Assembly (NCBI GenBank): GCA_030610025.1
Contig: JAUWSP010000033.1
Span: 1 to 11,786 of the forward strand
Source: Acidobacteriota bacterium
GTDB lineage: Bacteria; Acidobacteriota; Thermoanaerobaculia; Multivoradales; JAHEKO01
Direction: 5' to 3'
DNA length: 11,786 nt
In this document: positions 6,380 through 11,786 of the stretch, piece by piece
Numbering within the stretch: the first letter of the stretch is position 1
How the letters are laid out: each line of letters starts with the position of its first letter
Position numbers and translations under genes: made by a program
Notes under the pieces: model-generated
The model's input: only the letters and a program-made list of their open reading frames with translations
What the model was told of the DNA's origin: nothing
The model's database searches: none

Positions 6380-7864
6380 GTGAGCCATCAACTGCTGATC
6401 GAAAGTGATGCCCACCAGAGCCGGATCGCGGTTCTGGAGGACGGGCGTTTGATGGAGGTCCGCATCGAACGGCGACGGGACGAGAGGTTGGTGGGAGCGG
6501 TCTTCAAGGGTCGAGTGACCCGTGTTCTGCCCGGGATCGAGGCTGCCTTCGTGGACATCGGCCTGGAGAGAGACGCCTTTCTCTACGCGGGCGACATCCA
6601 GGACAAACTGCAGGGCGTCGAAGAGGCCGAGCTCGAGGAGGAAGTCGAGGCAGGAGTCCTGGATCGGCCCATCAATGAGTTGATCGCCGAAGGCCAGGAG
6701 GTTCTGGTGCAGGTGGCCAAGGAGCCGCTGCCCAACAAAGGGGCGCGGATCACCACCTTCATCACGCTGCCGGGTCGCTACCTGGTACTGCTGCCAGCCA
6801 GCCAGGACCTCGGTATCTCACGGCGCATCGTGGACAGCGAAGAGCGGCAGCGCCTCGAAGACCTACTGGCTGAGATCCGTCCCCCAGAACAGGGGCTCAT
6901 CGTCCGTACGGTCGCGGAGGGCTCCGAGGCCAGCACTCTCGAAGTGGACCTCGAGCGCCTCGCCCGGCTCTGGAGCGAGATCGACCAACGCTCTCAGCAG
7001 GTCACGGCCCCGGCGCTTCTTCACCGTGACCTGGAGCTACCCATGAGGGTGGTGCGGGACTTCCTCGATGACAGGTTCGAGATCCTGTGGCTCAGCGGTG
7101 CCGAGATCTACGAGCAGGTGGTGGACTATCTGAGGCAGGTAGCTCCCGACCTCGTCGGCCGCGTCCAGTTGCACATTCCCGAGGGCACACTGTTCGAGCG
7201 GTTCGGAGTGGAATCAGAGCTGGAGAGAGCTCTGGGCAACAGGGTGTGGCTTCCATCGGGAGGCTATCTCGTGGTCAGCCCCACGGAGGCCCTGGTGGCC
7301 ATCGATGTCAACACGGGCCGCTACGTGGGCACAGTGGATCTGGAAGAGACAGCGCTCAAGACCAACCTGGAGGCCACCCGGGAGATCGCTCGGCAGCTTC
7401 GACTGCGGGATCTGGGCGGAATCGTGGTCGCCGATTTCATCGACATGGAGGACCCCGACCATCAGGCTCAGGTCATGGCGGCGCTCGAGGCCGAGCTGGC
7501 CAACGACCGGGCGAGAATCCGCATCGGGGGTCTTTCCGCCTTCGGACTGGTTCAGATCACCCGCAAGCGAAGCCGCAGCGATCTGGTGAGCCAGCTGACC
7601 CGCCCCTGCCCTACATGCCTCGGTCTCGGACGGGTGAAAAGCGAGATCACGGTGCTACTCGAGCTCCGCCGGAAGGTCCTGGAGAGAATCGCCGAGCTGG
7701 GTGGCCGTCCGCTGAAGCTCCGAGTCAGACCCGAGGTTTCGGCCTCGCTCGAAGGCGAGCAGCGCGCCATTCTCGTGGAGCTGGAGGAGCGCCTCGGAAC
7801 GCGTATACGTGTCGAAGCCGACACCGGCCTACGAGCCGAGGAGTACGAGATCCTTGGCGGGTAG
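6380..7864 (+). CDS. rng: Ribonuclease G (RNase E/G family endoribonuclease)
   Basis: RNase G is a cytoplasmic, Mg-dependent single-strand endoribonuclease that processes rRNA ends and cleaves mRNAs. The 494-residue product is close to the 489 of E. coli RNase G and lacks the long C-terminal scaffold of RNase E. An S1 RNA-binding domain lies at about 37-125 (GRVTRVLPGIEAAFVDIG, then an acidic insertion at about 75-95, and NKGARITTFITLPGRYLVLLP). The DNase-I-like catalytic core has both metal-binding aspartates, Asp309 in AIDVNTGRYVG and Asp352 in VADFIDMED. The Zn-link pair CPTC is present (Cys410, Cys413). The GTG start at 6380 follows AGAAGG with about 7-nt spacing, 11 bp after rodA. The 3' end overlaps the next gene. 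mreBCD and rng are also neighbours in E. coli, so the linkage is an old one. Confidence 0.95.
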   Translation: MSHQLLIESDAHQSRIAVLEDGRLMEVRIERRRDERLVGAVFKGRVTRVLPGIEAAFVDIGLERDAFLYAGDIQDKLQGVEEAELEEEVEAGVLDRPINELIAEGQEVLVQVAKEPLPNKGARITTFITLPGRYLVLLPASQDLGISRRIVDSEERQRLEDLLAEIRPPEQGLIVRTVAEGSEASTLEVDLERLARLWSEIDQRSQQVTAPALLHRDLELPMRVVRDFLDDRFEILWLSGAEIYEQVVDYLRQVAPDLVGRVQLHIPEGTLFERFGVESELERALGNRVWLPSGGYLVVSPTEALVAIDVNTGRYVGTVDLEETALKTNLEATREIARQLRLRDLGGIVVADFIDMEDPDHQAQVMAALEAELANDRARIRIGGLSAFGLVQITRKRSRSDLVSQLTRPCPTCLGLGRVKSEITVLLELRRKVLERIAELGGRPLKLRVRPEVSASLEGEQRAILVELEERLGTRIRVEADTGLRAEEYEILGG

Positions 7865-10064
7865 CGAGGCCACCGGCCAGGAGAGGAGCTTCGAAGGCTT
7901 CTCGTTCGAGGACGTGCATGGGGAGGTCGCGGCAACCCACCGGCCCATCGACCTATCCACGGCCATCGAGAAGCTCATCGACCCCGGTCGAGGTGGCGAC
8001 ACACTGCACTGGGGGAGGAACTACCTCTACGCCTCCGAGCTGGAGACGGAAGCAGGGCCGCTCCCTGTAGTCGTCAAGCAGTTCCGAAACCAGGGGTTTC
8101 GCGCCCGGCTGTCCCGGCATCTCAAAGGCAGCAAGGCGACGAGGTCGTGGCGGGCGGCGCAAGCCGTCATCGATGCGGGGGTGGCCACACCGGCGCCGAT
8201 CCTATTGATCGAGTCGGAGGCCGTGGATGGGCCGTCCTTCTTCGTCAGTGAGAAGGTCCCGGACTTTATCGAGGCGAGGTATTTCTTCCGAGCCCTGCAG
8301 GAGGGAATCGAGCGACAGGCCTTTCCACAGATCGAGGCCGAGATGCTGGTCGGCGGCGTCGGCCAGATGTTGCGCCGTCTGCATGATGCCGGCATCTGGC
8401 ATCGGGATGTCTCGGTTGGCAATCTTCTGATCGTGCCGGGAGGCAAGGCGTCGGATCCACCGACCGTCTATCTGATCGACCTGAATCGAGCCCAGCTCGA
8501 TCGGCCGCTGACGGTTGGCCGTCGGACTCGGGACTTGTGCCGACTGCGGATCTTCGATCCCCACCTGCAGGAGGTGCTGCTGCGCTCCTATTGGGGCCAA
8601 GGGGATGCCGATTCACCCTGGAAGAGGTGGCTATATCGACTCTCCTTTCATGGCTTCCTGGTCAAGAACTGGATCAAAGACGCCGTGCGCAGCCCCTTCC
8701 GGTCGCTCGGGTCGCTGTTCGTCTCCAGAGGGCACCATGCACACATCCCACCCCCACCAGAGGGTGCTTCGAGTCGGGACCTGGTGGTCTGGGATCACCT
8801 CTCCGACCAACCCCATCAGCATGCGGGCCGCTGGCAGCGCCTGGGTGTGAGGCTGGGGGATGCCGGGTATCACGCCCGCGAGTATGGCGCCGCGGTGGCA
8901 GCACTGCCCCGGGCGCGCCGCCGCTACCGAGAGCTGAAAGAGGGGCTCTACCGGGAACCGATACGTTGGGATGGCCTCGGAGTCGGAATGAGACCGATGA
9001 ACGAGTACTCCGAGGCGGCACTCGTGGCCCTCGAGGCGCTCGGGGTGGAGCGGGTGCTTCTGCGGCTACACCCCTGGCAGGAGGATCACGACGCCGAGGA
9101 GCGCCTGGCTCGCGAACTGCACGGGCGGGGTATCGATCTCAGCTTCGCTCTGCCCCAGAATCGGGACCTGGTCCGGGATCGAAGTCGATGGCAGGCTGCA
9201 GTGAGTCAGTTGGCCGAACGCTTCACCCCCTTCGGCCGGGACTTCCAGATCGGCCAGGCGATCAATCGCAGCAAGTGGGGGGTTTGGAATTACGCCGAGT
9301 ACCTCGAACTGGTGGCCGATGCCAGCCGGATCCTGCGACAGCATGAAGGCGTGAGGATTCTGGGCCCGGCGGTGATCGACTACGAGTTTCATCGTTTGGC
9401 CGGAGTGCTCAACATCCCCTGGGAGGGTGTGTACTTCGACATCGTCTCGAGCTTGTTGTACGTGGATCGCCGCGGGGCTCCGGAGAATCGACAACTGGGC
9501 TTCGACACCGTGGACAAGGCGGTACAGCTCAGGGCTCTCGCCGACACCGGCAGCAGTTGCAGTGGGCGAGCGTGGGTCACCGAGTTCAATTGGCCGCTGT
9601 GGGAGGGCCCCCACTCTCCGGCCGGTCGCGACGTGTCGGTCGATGAAGAGACGCAGGCCAACCATCTGGTGCGCTACTGCCTGCTGGTTCTGGGAACCGG
9701 GTTGGTGGAGAGGGTTTACTGGTGGCAACTCGTCGCCAAAGGGTATGGCCTGACGTTCCTCGACACCGAAGGCTCGTTCCGGATGCGCCTCTCGTTCCAT
9801 GCCCTGGCAACGCTGCAGGAGCAAGTGGCAGGCAGCAGCTTCCTCGGTCCGCTGAAGGCCGAGCCGCCCATCCGGCTCTATCGTTTCCAGACCGAGGCCG
9901 GAGAAGAGGTGGTCGTGGGCTGGAGCACAGCCGGTACCGTCAACGCCACTCTGCCTCGTCCCGTCTCGAGGGTCGTTGGCCGCGACGGGGAGCAACTGGA
10001 ATCGACTGCCGGTCCGAACATTCAAGTCGGTCCAGCGCCCTGCTACTTCTGGCTCGAGCGTTGA
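7854..10064 (+). CDS. Fusion of a Kdo/WaaP/InaA-type kinase with a degenerate clan-A glycosidase-like domain
   Basis: I recognise both halves by motif but know no characterised ortholog. Residues about 20-250 form a lipopolysaccharide-kinase-family (WaaP/Kdo kinase/InaA) domain: Lys75 in VVVKQF, catalytic loop HRDVSVGN (His183, Asp185, Asn190) and metal-binding Asp209 in IDLN. Residues 256-290 are basic and amphipathic, suggesting membrane contact. From about 372 a TIM-barrel glycosidase of clan-A style begins (DGLGVGMRP). It has a probable strand-7 nucleophile in TEFNWP (Glu577) and a strand-8 YWWQL motif. Where the acid/base IGNEPN is expected, the sequence reads IGQAIN (466-471), so that Glu is absent. 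Residues about 665-736 look like a small beta domain. There is no signal peptide, so it is probably cytoplasmic. TTG 7854 was chosen: GAGGAG lies 10 nt upstream and it overlaps rng by 11 bp. GTG 7809 and GTG 7914 are alternatives. It is the last gene of the operon. Confidence 0.8.
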   Translation: MAGSEATGQERSFEGFSFEDVHGEVAATHRPIDLSTAIEKLIDPGRGGDTLHWGRNYLYASELETEAGPLPVVVKQFRNQGFRARLSRHLKGSKATRSWRAAQAVIDAGVATPAPILLIESEAVDGPSFFVSEKVPDFIEARYFFRALQEGIERQAFPQIEAEMLVGGVGQMLRRLHDAGIWHRDVSVGNLLIVPGGKASDPPTVYLIDLNRAQLDRPLTVGRRTRDLCRLRIFDPHLQEVLLRSYWGQGDADSPWKRWLYRLSFHGFLVKNWIKDAVRSPFRSLGSLFVSRGHHAHIPPPPEGASSRDLVVWDHLSDQPHQHAGRWQRLGVRLGDAGYHAREYGAAVAALPRARRRYRELKEGLYREPIRWDGLGVGMRPMNEYSEAALVALEALGVERVLLRLHPWQEDHDAEERLARELHGRGIDLSFALPQNRDLVRDRSRWQAAVSQLAERFTPFGRDFQIGQAINRSKWGVWNYAEYLELVADASRILRQHEGVRILGPAVIDYEFHRLAGVLNIPWEGVYFDIVSSLLYVDRRGAPENRQLGFDTVDKAVQLRALADTGSSCSGRAWVTEFNWPLWEGPHSPAGRDVSVDEETQANHLVRYCLLVLGTGLVERVYWWQLVAKGYGLTFLDTEGSFRMRLSFHALATLQEQVAGSSFLGPLKAEPPIRLYRFQTEAGEEVVVGWSTAGTVNATLPRPVSRVVGRDGEQLESTAGPNIQVGPAPCYFWLER

Positions 10065-10435
10065 TGTCCTGGGCTTGGGTCCTGAACAGACGACCCTCTT
10101 CTTGTGGAGGTCCGTCTGGGTGGTCCGCTGGGGGACGGCGCCCTTGTCGGCCTCTGCTACATCTACCCAATCTGGTCGGTGATCGGAGGTCCCCGGATGG
10201 CCTACCTCCACATCCGCTGCAAGAACTCCCTGGAGGTCCCGACGCCGAGCCCTGGATGGGTATCCGGGAACATGGGATCGACCAAGGGCTCTCCTGAGTC
10301 TGCGGCCTCACCCGACCATGCCCCTCCGACTCAGGAGACCCCTTGGCCGATCTGGCACCGTCGGTTCCGAGAGGTTCGTCCGGGTGGTTCGACAGGGGGT
10401 GCCGAGTCGAGCGCAGCGCCAGGACCTCCTGTTCT
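10065..10435. other. Gene-poor gap between convergent genes
   Basis: This 371-bp stretch lies between the stop of the kinase-glycosidase gene and the stop of the minus-strand SCP2 gene. No reading frame here gives a convincing protein. A frame opening at ATG 10197 has a perfect GGAGGT six nt upstream and begins MAYLHIRCKNS, but it becomes low-complexity and then runs antisense into the SCP2 gene, so it may be a decayed or spurious ORF. The 8-mer GGAGGTCC occurs three times (10106, 10185, 10232). The main structure is the inverted repeat at 10276-10352. A shorter GGCACC/GGTGCC pair (from 10354) lies just right of it. No tRNA-like fold was seen. Confidence 0.6.
10276..10352. repeat. 25-bp imperfect inverted repeat with 27-bp spacer
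   Basis: The arms at 10276-10300 and 10328-10352 are reverse complements at 23 of 25 positions; the innermost ten pairs (CTCCTGAGTC / GACTCAGGAG) are perfect. The two mismatches pair 10281 with 10347 and 10289 with 10339. As RNA this would be a very stable long hairpin from either strand. It lies 211 bp after the plus-strand operon's last stop and 83 bp after the minus-strand SCP2 stop, where a bidirectional transcription stop would be useful. Neither flank has the T-tract of a classical intrinsic terminator. A REP/BIME-like or MITE-like repeat is the alternative. Confidence 0.75.
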
Positions 10436-10966
10436 CTACGGACAGACCTCTGCGTTGCTGGGCACCTGGCCGGTCAGGACCAGGAAGTTGCCGAAGGGTC
10501 CCATGTTGTTCATGGCCTCGCCCTTCGGACCCTTGAACTTCAGACGGCCGAACATCATCGCCTTCATCGGTCCGTACTTGTCCGCTCCCATCTCCTGCCA
10601 ACGCTGGGTGTCGGCAAACATCAGGTAGTCGGCCTTCGGGCTCAACTCTTCGACCTTGACGGCTCCACCGTAGACACACTGCGTCGATCCGTCCCGCTCT
10701 TCGATGCGCAACTCGACTCGGGGGCTGTCTTCACAGTCCCGACGATAGATCTGCATGATCTTGAAGCCGCGATCGAGGTCGTTCTGCATCCACTTGCCGA
10801 GCTCGCCGGTAAGCCTTTCGTCCTCGTTCCAGGCCTCGCAAGCCAGTTCGGCCCAGTCGGCGGACATGAAGACGATCTCTTCGCCAGTGGCGGGAGAGAC
10901 GAGGATCGGCACCAGGAGCACCCCCAGGCCGAGGGCGATAGCACCTGTAGTGATGAGCTTCTTCAT
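10436..10966 (-). CDS. Exported SCP2 sterol-transfer-like protein
   Basis: This is a 176-residue secreted or periplasmic protein. It starts with a classic signal peptide: MKK, a hydrophobic core at 4-25, and ATG-EE as a likely cleavage site after Gly28. The mature part resembles SCP2-type sterol/lipid-binding domains. The C-terminal stretch KYGPMKAMMFGRLKFKGP followed by GPFGNFLVLTGQVP matches the pattern in which a ligand-binding helix and strand carry the load. In the known fold the domain holds a hydrophobic ligand in a tunnel; the ligand here cannot be told. Four cysteines (43, 78, 97, 175) in a mature part of about 148 residues suggest two disulfides formed after export. The ATG at 10966 has a perfect AAGGAGG (10975-10981), giving confidence in the start. 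It is separated from lhr by 196 bp, so it probably has its own promoter, though I found no clear one. Confidence 0.8.
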   Translation of the reverse strand: MKKLITTGAIALGLGVLLVPILVSPATGEEIVFMSADWAELACEAWNEDERLTGELGKWMQNDLDRGFKIMQIYRRDCEDSPRVELRIEERDGSTQCVYGGAVKVEELSPKADYLMFADTQRWQEMGADKYGPMKAMMFGRLKFKGPKGEAMNNMGPFGNFLVLTGQVPSNAEVCP

Positions 10967-11162: not shown

Positions 11163-11786
11163 TCAATACCGCCGGCGCAGCTTCAGGGCTCCGGGCTCGC
11201 GGGAGACGCCGAACATCTCGGCCAGCGGCACGGCGTAGGGGCTATCCGTTGCGGGCGCGCCATTGATCGACTCGATGGCAACGCCGTGCATGGGGTCGAA
11301 CTGGCGGGTCAGCAGCACTTTCAAGAAGCCGAGGTAGTCCCGCAGGAAGGGGTGGTCGGGCTCGACCTCGATCTCGAGATCTCGGCCCTGTCGCCGAGCC
11401 ACCACCACCAACTCGGTGCCGTGGTAGACGAGATATGTCCCTACCCGCCTGGGTGGTACCCGCCCCTTGAGCTCTTCGAGCGCCAAGCCGCAAGGAGAGG
11501 CCGGGTCCAGCGCTCCCATCCAGAAGATCCTATCGGTCGGCAGCCCTTCCCGGAGGTGGCGATAGGCCGCGGGTGCGATGAACTGGAGACCGTCGATACC
11601 TCGGAAGAAGTGACCTGCCAGGACTTCGCCCGAGAGCTCCATGATGCGAAGGGTTCGAAAAAGGTTGGACCAACGCAGTGCCGGAAGCTCACGGGCCAGC
11701 AGCTCCCTGAAGAGGATTCCGTAGCGCTGCAGCAGTTGGCGGACCCTCTCCCTGTTGAGCTCCTCGACCTCCAGGGCGTCGCGCTC
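11163..11786 (-). CDS. lhr: C-terminal part of an Lhr-type DEAD/DEAH ATP-dependent helicase, 5' end outside window
   Basis: Lhr proteins are large 3'-5' DNA/RNA-DNA helicases linked to DNA repair. Only the last 207 residues are here, so the RecA-like motor domains lie beyond the right edge. The visible part matches the Lhr C-terminal region: a winged-helix-like LLQRYGILFRELLARELP, then W-x-x-L-x-x-x-L-R, the GEVLAGHFFRGIDGLQF segment (Lhr proteins typically show GEIRGGRFVxGxxGEQF), and a GALDPASPCGL stretch followed by RVPPRRVGTYLVYHGTELV. The C-terminus reads INGAPATDSPYAVPLAEMFG and ends LKLRRRY, also Lhr-like. The frame is open to the window edge, and the TGA is at 11165-11163. The adjacent SCP2 gene is on the same strand 196 bp downstream, with no sign of a functional link. 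Confidence 0.85.
   Translation of the reverse strand, partial: ERDALEVEELNRERVRQLLQRYGILFRELLARELPALRWSNLFRTLRIMELSGEVLAGHFFRGIDGLQFIAPAAYRHLREGLPTDRIFWMGALDPASPCGLALEELKGRVPPRRVGTYLVYHGTELVVVARRQGRDLEIEVEPDHPFLRDYLGFLKVLLTRQFDPMHGVAIESINGAPATDSPYAVPLAEMFGVSREPGALKLRRRY

Follow-up and report, generated by a model that had tools for sequence, protein, structure and literature searches.

How does a lipopolysaccharide (LPS)-type kinase come to share one polypeptide with a glycosidase-like barrel whose acid/base glutamate is missing, and what might such a barrel contribute? The question is raised by a gene in an 11,786-nucleotide stretch (positions 1 to 11,786 of contig JAUWSP010000033.1, assembly GCA_030610025.1, Acidobacteriota bacterium; hereafter, the window), where positions 7854-10064 (+) form a single stop-free reading frame of 736 amino acids. 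The two domains, both from known superfamilies, recur in three arrangements: fused as in the window, encoded by separate adjoining genes, and fused in reversed order, with barrel and kinase swapped. On balance, we favour the view that the protein acts in the cytoplasm as an LPS inner-core kinase (WaaP/Kdo superfamily) and that its GH39-like barrel, altered in its catalytic residues, serves as a pseudo-glycosidase domain for glycan binding. The relevant features of the gene are the following.

7854-10064 (+): whole gene, kinase-barrel fusion; start taken as TTG 7854, start codon uncertain
7941-8723 (+): WaaP/Kdo-type kinase domain, residues about 30-290 (PF06293, WaaP structure 6dfl, invariant residues)
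8076-8078 (+): kinase lysine K75, invariant
8400-8408 (+): kinase HRD motif, invariant
8421-8423 (+): kinase N190, invariant
8478-8480 (+): kinase D209, invariant
8775-8831 (+): junction motif, residues 308-326; W313, D318, Q319 and P320 invariant in 17/17 rows (alignment A2)
8949-9803 (+): GH39-like TIM barrel, residues 366-650 (predicted model, fold search, profile alignment)
9255-9260 (+): Gln468-Ala469, where GH39 has Asn-Glu with the acid/base residue (HHalign, homolog counts)
9264-9275 (+): Asn471-Arg472-Ser473-Lys474, pocket motif past strand 4 (homolog alignments)
9378-9386 (+): Asp509-x-Glu511, past strand 5, invariant in alignments of all three groups
9465-9485 (+): Asp538-Arg539 ... 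Pro543-Glu544, past strand 6 (homolog alignments)
9582-9584 (+): Glu577, nucleophile position, strand 7 (HHalign, homolog counts)
9831-10061 (+): C-terminal beta domain as in GH39, residues 660-736 (model strands, aligned range of the fold match)

The initial annotation, made from the DNA letters, described the second half as a clan-A (GH-A) barrel with Glu577 at the nucleophile position and with Gln-Ala in place of the strand-4 Asn-Glu. The predicted model, the fold search and profile alignment agree on a GH39/PslG-like clan-A barrel followed by a C-terminal beta domain, and the possibility, raised at the same time, that this half is not a GH-A barrel did not materialize. Pfam searches found no family for the barrel half, whether at E ≤ 1 in the window protein (P0001) or at E ≤ 0.1 in P0142, P0318, P0362 and P0008, and a PF01229 (GH39) search of the own genome gave no match. 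A sequence-only PDB profile search with the barrel as a query returned one weak GH39 match (5jvk, E = 0.0086), and its strand-4 piece (−2.8 bits) was set aside in column assignment; matches in a viral structure library, to other barrel hydrolases and to kinases, were uninformative. Columns were assigned instead with a GH39-like reference set, collected by a PF01229 search of 40 genomes that gave seven places, of which six were read and the five with WNEP motifs aligned (L134 was omitted). HHalign matched the barrel profile with these five proteins (probability 97, E = 4.9e−11), pairing F-Q-I-G-Q468-A469-I-N471 with Y-E-L-W-N-E-P-D and E577 with the Glu of ITE. This alignment sets Ala469 on the acid/base Glu of the GH39-like proteins, so that Glu is replaced by Ala, and Glu577 falls at the nucleophile position, both as initially described.

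We then counted these columns in the best 120 proteins of each arrangement (360 in total). Glu or Asp occupies the acid/base column in none of the 360: the residue is Ala in 119 and Arg in one of the fused proteins, Ala in 118, Gly in one and Ser in one of the separate barrels, and Thr in 118 and Ala in two of the reversed proteins. Column 469 is thus conserved as non-Glu. At the nucleophile column, Glu is found in 119/120 fused and 120/120 separate barrels, the lone exception being the fused P0016, which deviates at both columns. None of the 120 reversed proteins has the nucleophile Glu, and most have His or Tyr there. The Gln468 column is His in all 120 separate barrels, whose strand-4 motif is G-H-A-W-N-R-T-K-W-G; L069 and L070, from two class members, hold separate barrels carrying the same motifs.

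What all three groups have in common is a polar Asn/Arg/Asp/Glu pocket. Asp509, Glu511 and Glu544 are invariant carboxylates in the homolog alignments, the pocket Asn and Arg are kept in 120/120 reversed proteins, and Asp-Phe-Glu, Glu-Arg and Pro-Glu in 50/50 reversed rows (alignment A4). The reversed barrel is homologous to that of the window (profile comparison, probability 100, E = 4.3e−42), and the predicted model of the reversed form matches both GH39 and WaaP structures. Among 17 fused and separate barrels, 58 residues within 366-650 are invariant; with face windows set by hand from the model strand list, 41 of them lie at or after strand ends, on the catalytic face (22.8 expected, hypergeometric p = 6e−8), and six before strands, on the opposite face (20.6 expected). 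Since the pocket persists in the reversed family although both catalytic Glu residues are gone, the role shared by the three groups needs neither of them, and would most simply be recognition of the core glycan. The barrel may grip the growing core oligosaccharide and thereby position a core sugar for phosphorylation, or, alternatively, might check that the core is built before phosphorylation. The idea of a carbohydrate-binding pseudo-glycosidase, originally one of several suggestions, gains weight from the reversed family, in which the nucleophile Glu is missing too.

The kinase half exceeds the Pfam cut-off for PF06293 (41.6 versus 21.3 bits), as do the kinases of the reversed P0318 from Syntrophotalea acetylenivorans (33.4 bits) and the separate L063 (41.9 bits), and it matches the WaaP chain 6dfl in a sequence search (E = 9.7e−7). 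K75, D185, N190 and D209 are kept in 120/120 fused proteins, and the corresponding catalytic Lys, HRD Asp, Asn and metal-binding Asp in 50/50 reversed ones. Profile score and invariant residues agree with the complete WaaP/Kdo-type kinase core noted initially, and because the catalytic set is invariant, the window kinase should be catalytically active. In Pseudomonas aeruginosa WaaP, described as a cytoplasmic soluble protein, Ala or Asn at K51, D163 or D188 abolishes complementation, and R162A is tolerated (PMC6147952). By motif, these three residues would be the equivalents of K75, D185 and D209. The window protein has no membrane-type hydrophobic stretch (top 19-residue mean 1.53).

The pairing is widespread, in separate-gene and reversed forms as well, which extends the initial annotation. 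Searches returned 1203 full-length homologs of the window protein at E ≤ 0.001. A match occurs in 57 of the 59 related genomes (own included), with both halves in one stop-free frame in 55, so the frame is genuine; the relatives bear names of Thermoanaerobaculia and other Acidobacteriota, and one record is titled Deltaproteobacteria. In a phylum sample of 396 genomes, with scoring limited to two candidates per genome and barrel-bearing rows counted by hand, 98 gave any match, in many cases through the kinase part alone. Forty-five of these genomes bear the barrel: 26 have it fused, 15 have a separate kinase directly beside it, one has the reversed form (G200) and three are exceptions. The kinase is therefore fused or directly adjoining in 42/45.

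The separate-gene form occurs in a different acidobacterial lineage, which database names identify as Aminicenantes; the named separate barrels come from Candidatus Aminicenantes or close kin, and one is labelled only 'bacterium'. We took 12 of the 15 adjoining pairs with their flanks (L057-L068). In all 12, the two genes are co-oriented, with the kinase immediately before the barrel. Their neighbours include a divergent GT9 heptosyltransferase (10/12), a methyltransferase (10/12), a WaaL-type O-antigen ligase (nine loci), a GT4 glycosyltransferase (eight) and a PfkB kinase (eight); the queries for these counts were the L063 proteins, which makes L063 match itself, and some contigs end early. 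The separate pair thus sits in LPS-core loci, which speaks for the favoured view. So does the presence of GT9 in 30/30 related genomes and of WaaA (PF04413) in 29/30, own included in both cases.

The reversed-order family gave 268 hits, with proteobacterial, Lentisphaerae and Kiritimatiellae names. One member, P0245 (1098 aa), runs on into a lipid A acyltransferase (PF03279, residues 790-1077, E = 2.2e−76) and, if the record is sound, would combine three LPS functions on one chain. The lone acidobacterial reversed fusion is L071 (G200:C103:36000-45997). No reversed fusion was found in 37 other genomes of the G200 class, two of which gave weak kinase-only matches, and for this reason L071 might have been gained horizontally or lie on a misbinned contig. 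Among 72,556 plasmid records, P0318 as a query matched 3, by the kinase part only.

To relate the arrangements, we built a kinase tree of 61 rows, comprising 14/67 of the fused (A1) and 16/50 of the reversed (A4) alignments, the full set of 12 separate kinases and a further 19 that include E. coli WaaP; the L156 and L164 frames were dropped for poor match and L071 enters as P0122. A single branch separates each arrangement from the rest (fused 99/98, separate 100/99, reversed 100/94), and another (97/89) separates the three arrangements plus six stand-alone kinases from the remaining rows. Several branches are long, that of E. coli WaaP being the longest, and the deep order is unsure. Independent pairing for each arrangement finds no support in this tree, and one old partnership rearranged several times fits better than repeated pairing. 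Directly upstream of related stand-alone kinases we also observed a PMT-type membrane glycosyltransferase gene (L146, 4514-6127 (−); L149, 4475-6556 (−)).

In the window, the fusion gene is the last in a same-strand run of MreB, MreC, MreD, PBP2-type transpeptidase, RodA-type and RNase G-type genes (Pfam), and its start (TTG 7854) overlaps the RNase G gene by 11 bases:

6380-7864 (+): RNase G-type gene (Pfam RNase_E_G), the usual upstream neighbour

We examined 50 of 53 loci, four of which lack enough flank; in 33 of the 46 loci with a 1.5 kb flank, RNase G is the immediate upstream gene (≤300 bases, same strand), and the remaining 13 have other neighbours or RNase G farther off. At L147 (G248:C48:25000-33000), from a class member, a RodA-type gene and RNase G precede a stand-alone kinase of 248 aa. 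Antisense to the window barrel is a 381-aa open frame without a Pfam match (9066-10211 (−)), probably a by-product of the G+C-rich sequence. Downstream lie genes for an SCP-2-like domain protein (10439-10966 (−), E = 2.4e−6) and a partial Lhr-type helicase (11166-11786 (−), winged helix E = 8.6e−21).

Several observations weigh against a glycan-reading LPS-core kinase. Cell-shape genes, not LPS genes, adjoin the window fusion. The window protein misses the NCBIfam equivalog cut-offs for RfaP (38.3 versus 170 bits) and KdkA (34.1 versus 142), and by these scores the sugar target may be heptose or Kdo. Three barrel-bearing genomes have no adjoining kinase: in G414 none occurs within 19 kb of L070, in G306 the kinase sits on a different contig from the barrel, and G242 offers pieces only. 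Conversely, no barrel was found in the 8 kb read at L147, where the kinase site behind RNase G might predate the fusion; alternatively, a barrel once present might have been lost. Finally, Glu577 is kept in 239/240 fused and separate proteins, which exceeds the need of a mere binding role, and 51/120 reversed proteins have at the nucleophile column a Tyr, as does CmGH1, a GH39 protein considered below.

The last two points lead to the strongest alternative, that the barrel has kept enzymatic activity, be it as a retaining hydrolase, as a transglycosylase or as a glycosyltransferase, and that the polypeptide both edits and phosphorylates a core sugar. Plant myrosinases act on an activated donor and need no acid; Glu577 could likewise work with an activated donor, or Asp509, Glu511, Glu544 or, in the separate form, the His of the Gln468 column could serve as acid/base. 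The invariance of these three carboxylates and of that His would suit such chemistry, as would the position of the separate genes among glycosyltransferases. CmGH1, with Gln and Tyr at the two catalytic positions, is reported to be active, and Y264E to abolish the activity (PMC6933502). An active barrel keeps its place among the explanations because Glu577 is almost perfectly kept and CmGH1 is reported active; however, the acid/base column lacks Glu and Asp in 360/360 proteins, and the homologous reversed family, with the same kinase partner, lacks the nucleophile Glu in 120/120. We therefore regard this alternative as rather doubtful. A more specific proposal, which we consider unlikely, is a two-headed LPS-core enzyme present in several bacterial groups in all three arrangements, in which the barrel would apply new chemistry to the same core sugar as the kinase, so that editing and phosphorylation form one coupled cytoplasmic step; Glu577, or His/Tyr in the reversed family, may act there with the invariant Asp/Glu/Arg pocket.

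Alternatively, the barrel may be a structural or regulatory partner that docks the kinase to LPS glycosyltransferases or senses a soluble sugar, with no contact with the lipid-linked substrate. That the two domains recur together in three arrangements is consistent with this, and so is the junction motif W-x(4)-D-Q-P, common to fused barrels and the start of separate barrel genes and possibly a kinase-docking element (model confidence is low at residues 316-318 within it). However, the invariant residues crowd on the sugar-binding face, few lying opposite, unlike in a mere scaffold, although sensing of a free sugar is still compatible with that pattern; overall, this explanation appears improbable. 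An artefact, two genes joined through an assembly error or frame slip in a draft genome of 594 contigs where one place matches the fusion protein, is practically negligible given the 55/59 genomes with both halves in frame and the 1203 full-length homologs.

Searches of an open-licence library, which covers far less than the whole literature, turned up no account of the pairing, of its three arrangements or of the catalytic series. Although it belongs to no Pfam family, the barrel is found with an LPS-type kinase in distant lineages and in all three arrangements. If the barrel does read the core glycan as a pseudo-glycosidase, it would illustrate how a sugar kinase becomes specific for a large lipid-linked oligosaccharide, and the Glu-kept and Glu-lost forms would make a natural series for a glycosidase turning into a binding domain. 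The pair also offers a handle on LPS-core assembly in Acidobacteriota, whose genomes here come mostly from uncultured sources.

Among known systems, PslG and other GH39 enzymes (5bx9, 4zn2, 9g17, 5jvk) share the barrel, the C-terminal beta domain and, with the fused and separate forms, the nucleophile-position Glu. They differ in having the acid/base Glu, here Ala or Thr, whereas the barrels described here are fused to or beside a kinase, have no Pfam GH39 match and, in the reversed family, lack the nucleophile Glu. CmGH1 of Croceicoccus marinus (5z3k) shares a GH39 fold without the Glu pair and the nucleophile-position Tyr of many reversed proteins, but is reported as an active beta-glucosidase, and the available part of that paper names no kinase (PMC6933502). 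WaaP/RfaP (PF06293; 6dfl) shares the kinase fold and catalytic residues; it is, however, a single-domain protein, whereas here a GH39-like barrel is attached or adjoining and the score falls under the RfaP equivalog cut-off. In its surroundings, where GT4, GT9 and O-antigen ligase genes lie close by, the separate-gene form resembles waaP in the waa locus of E. coli K-12.

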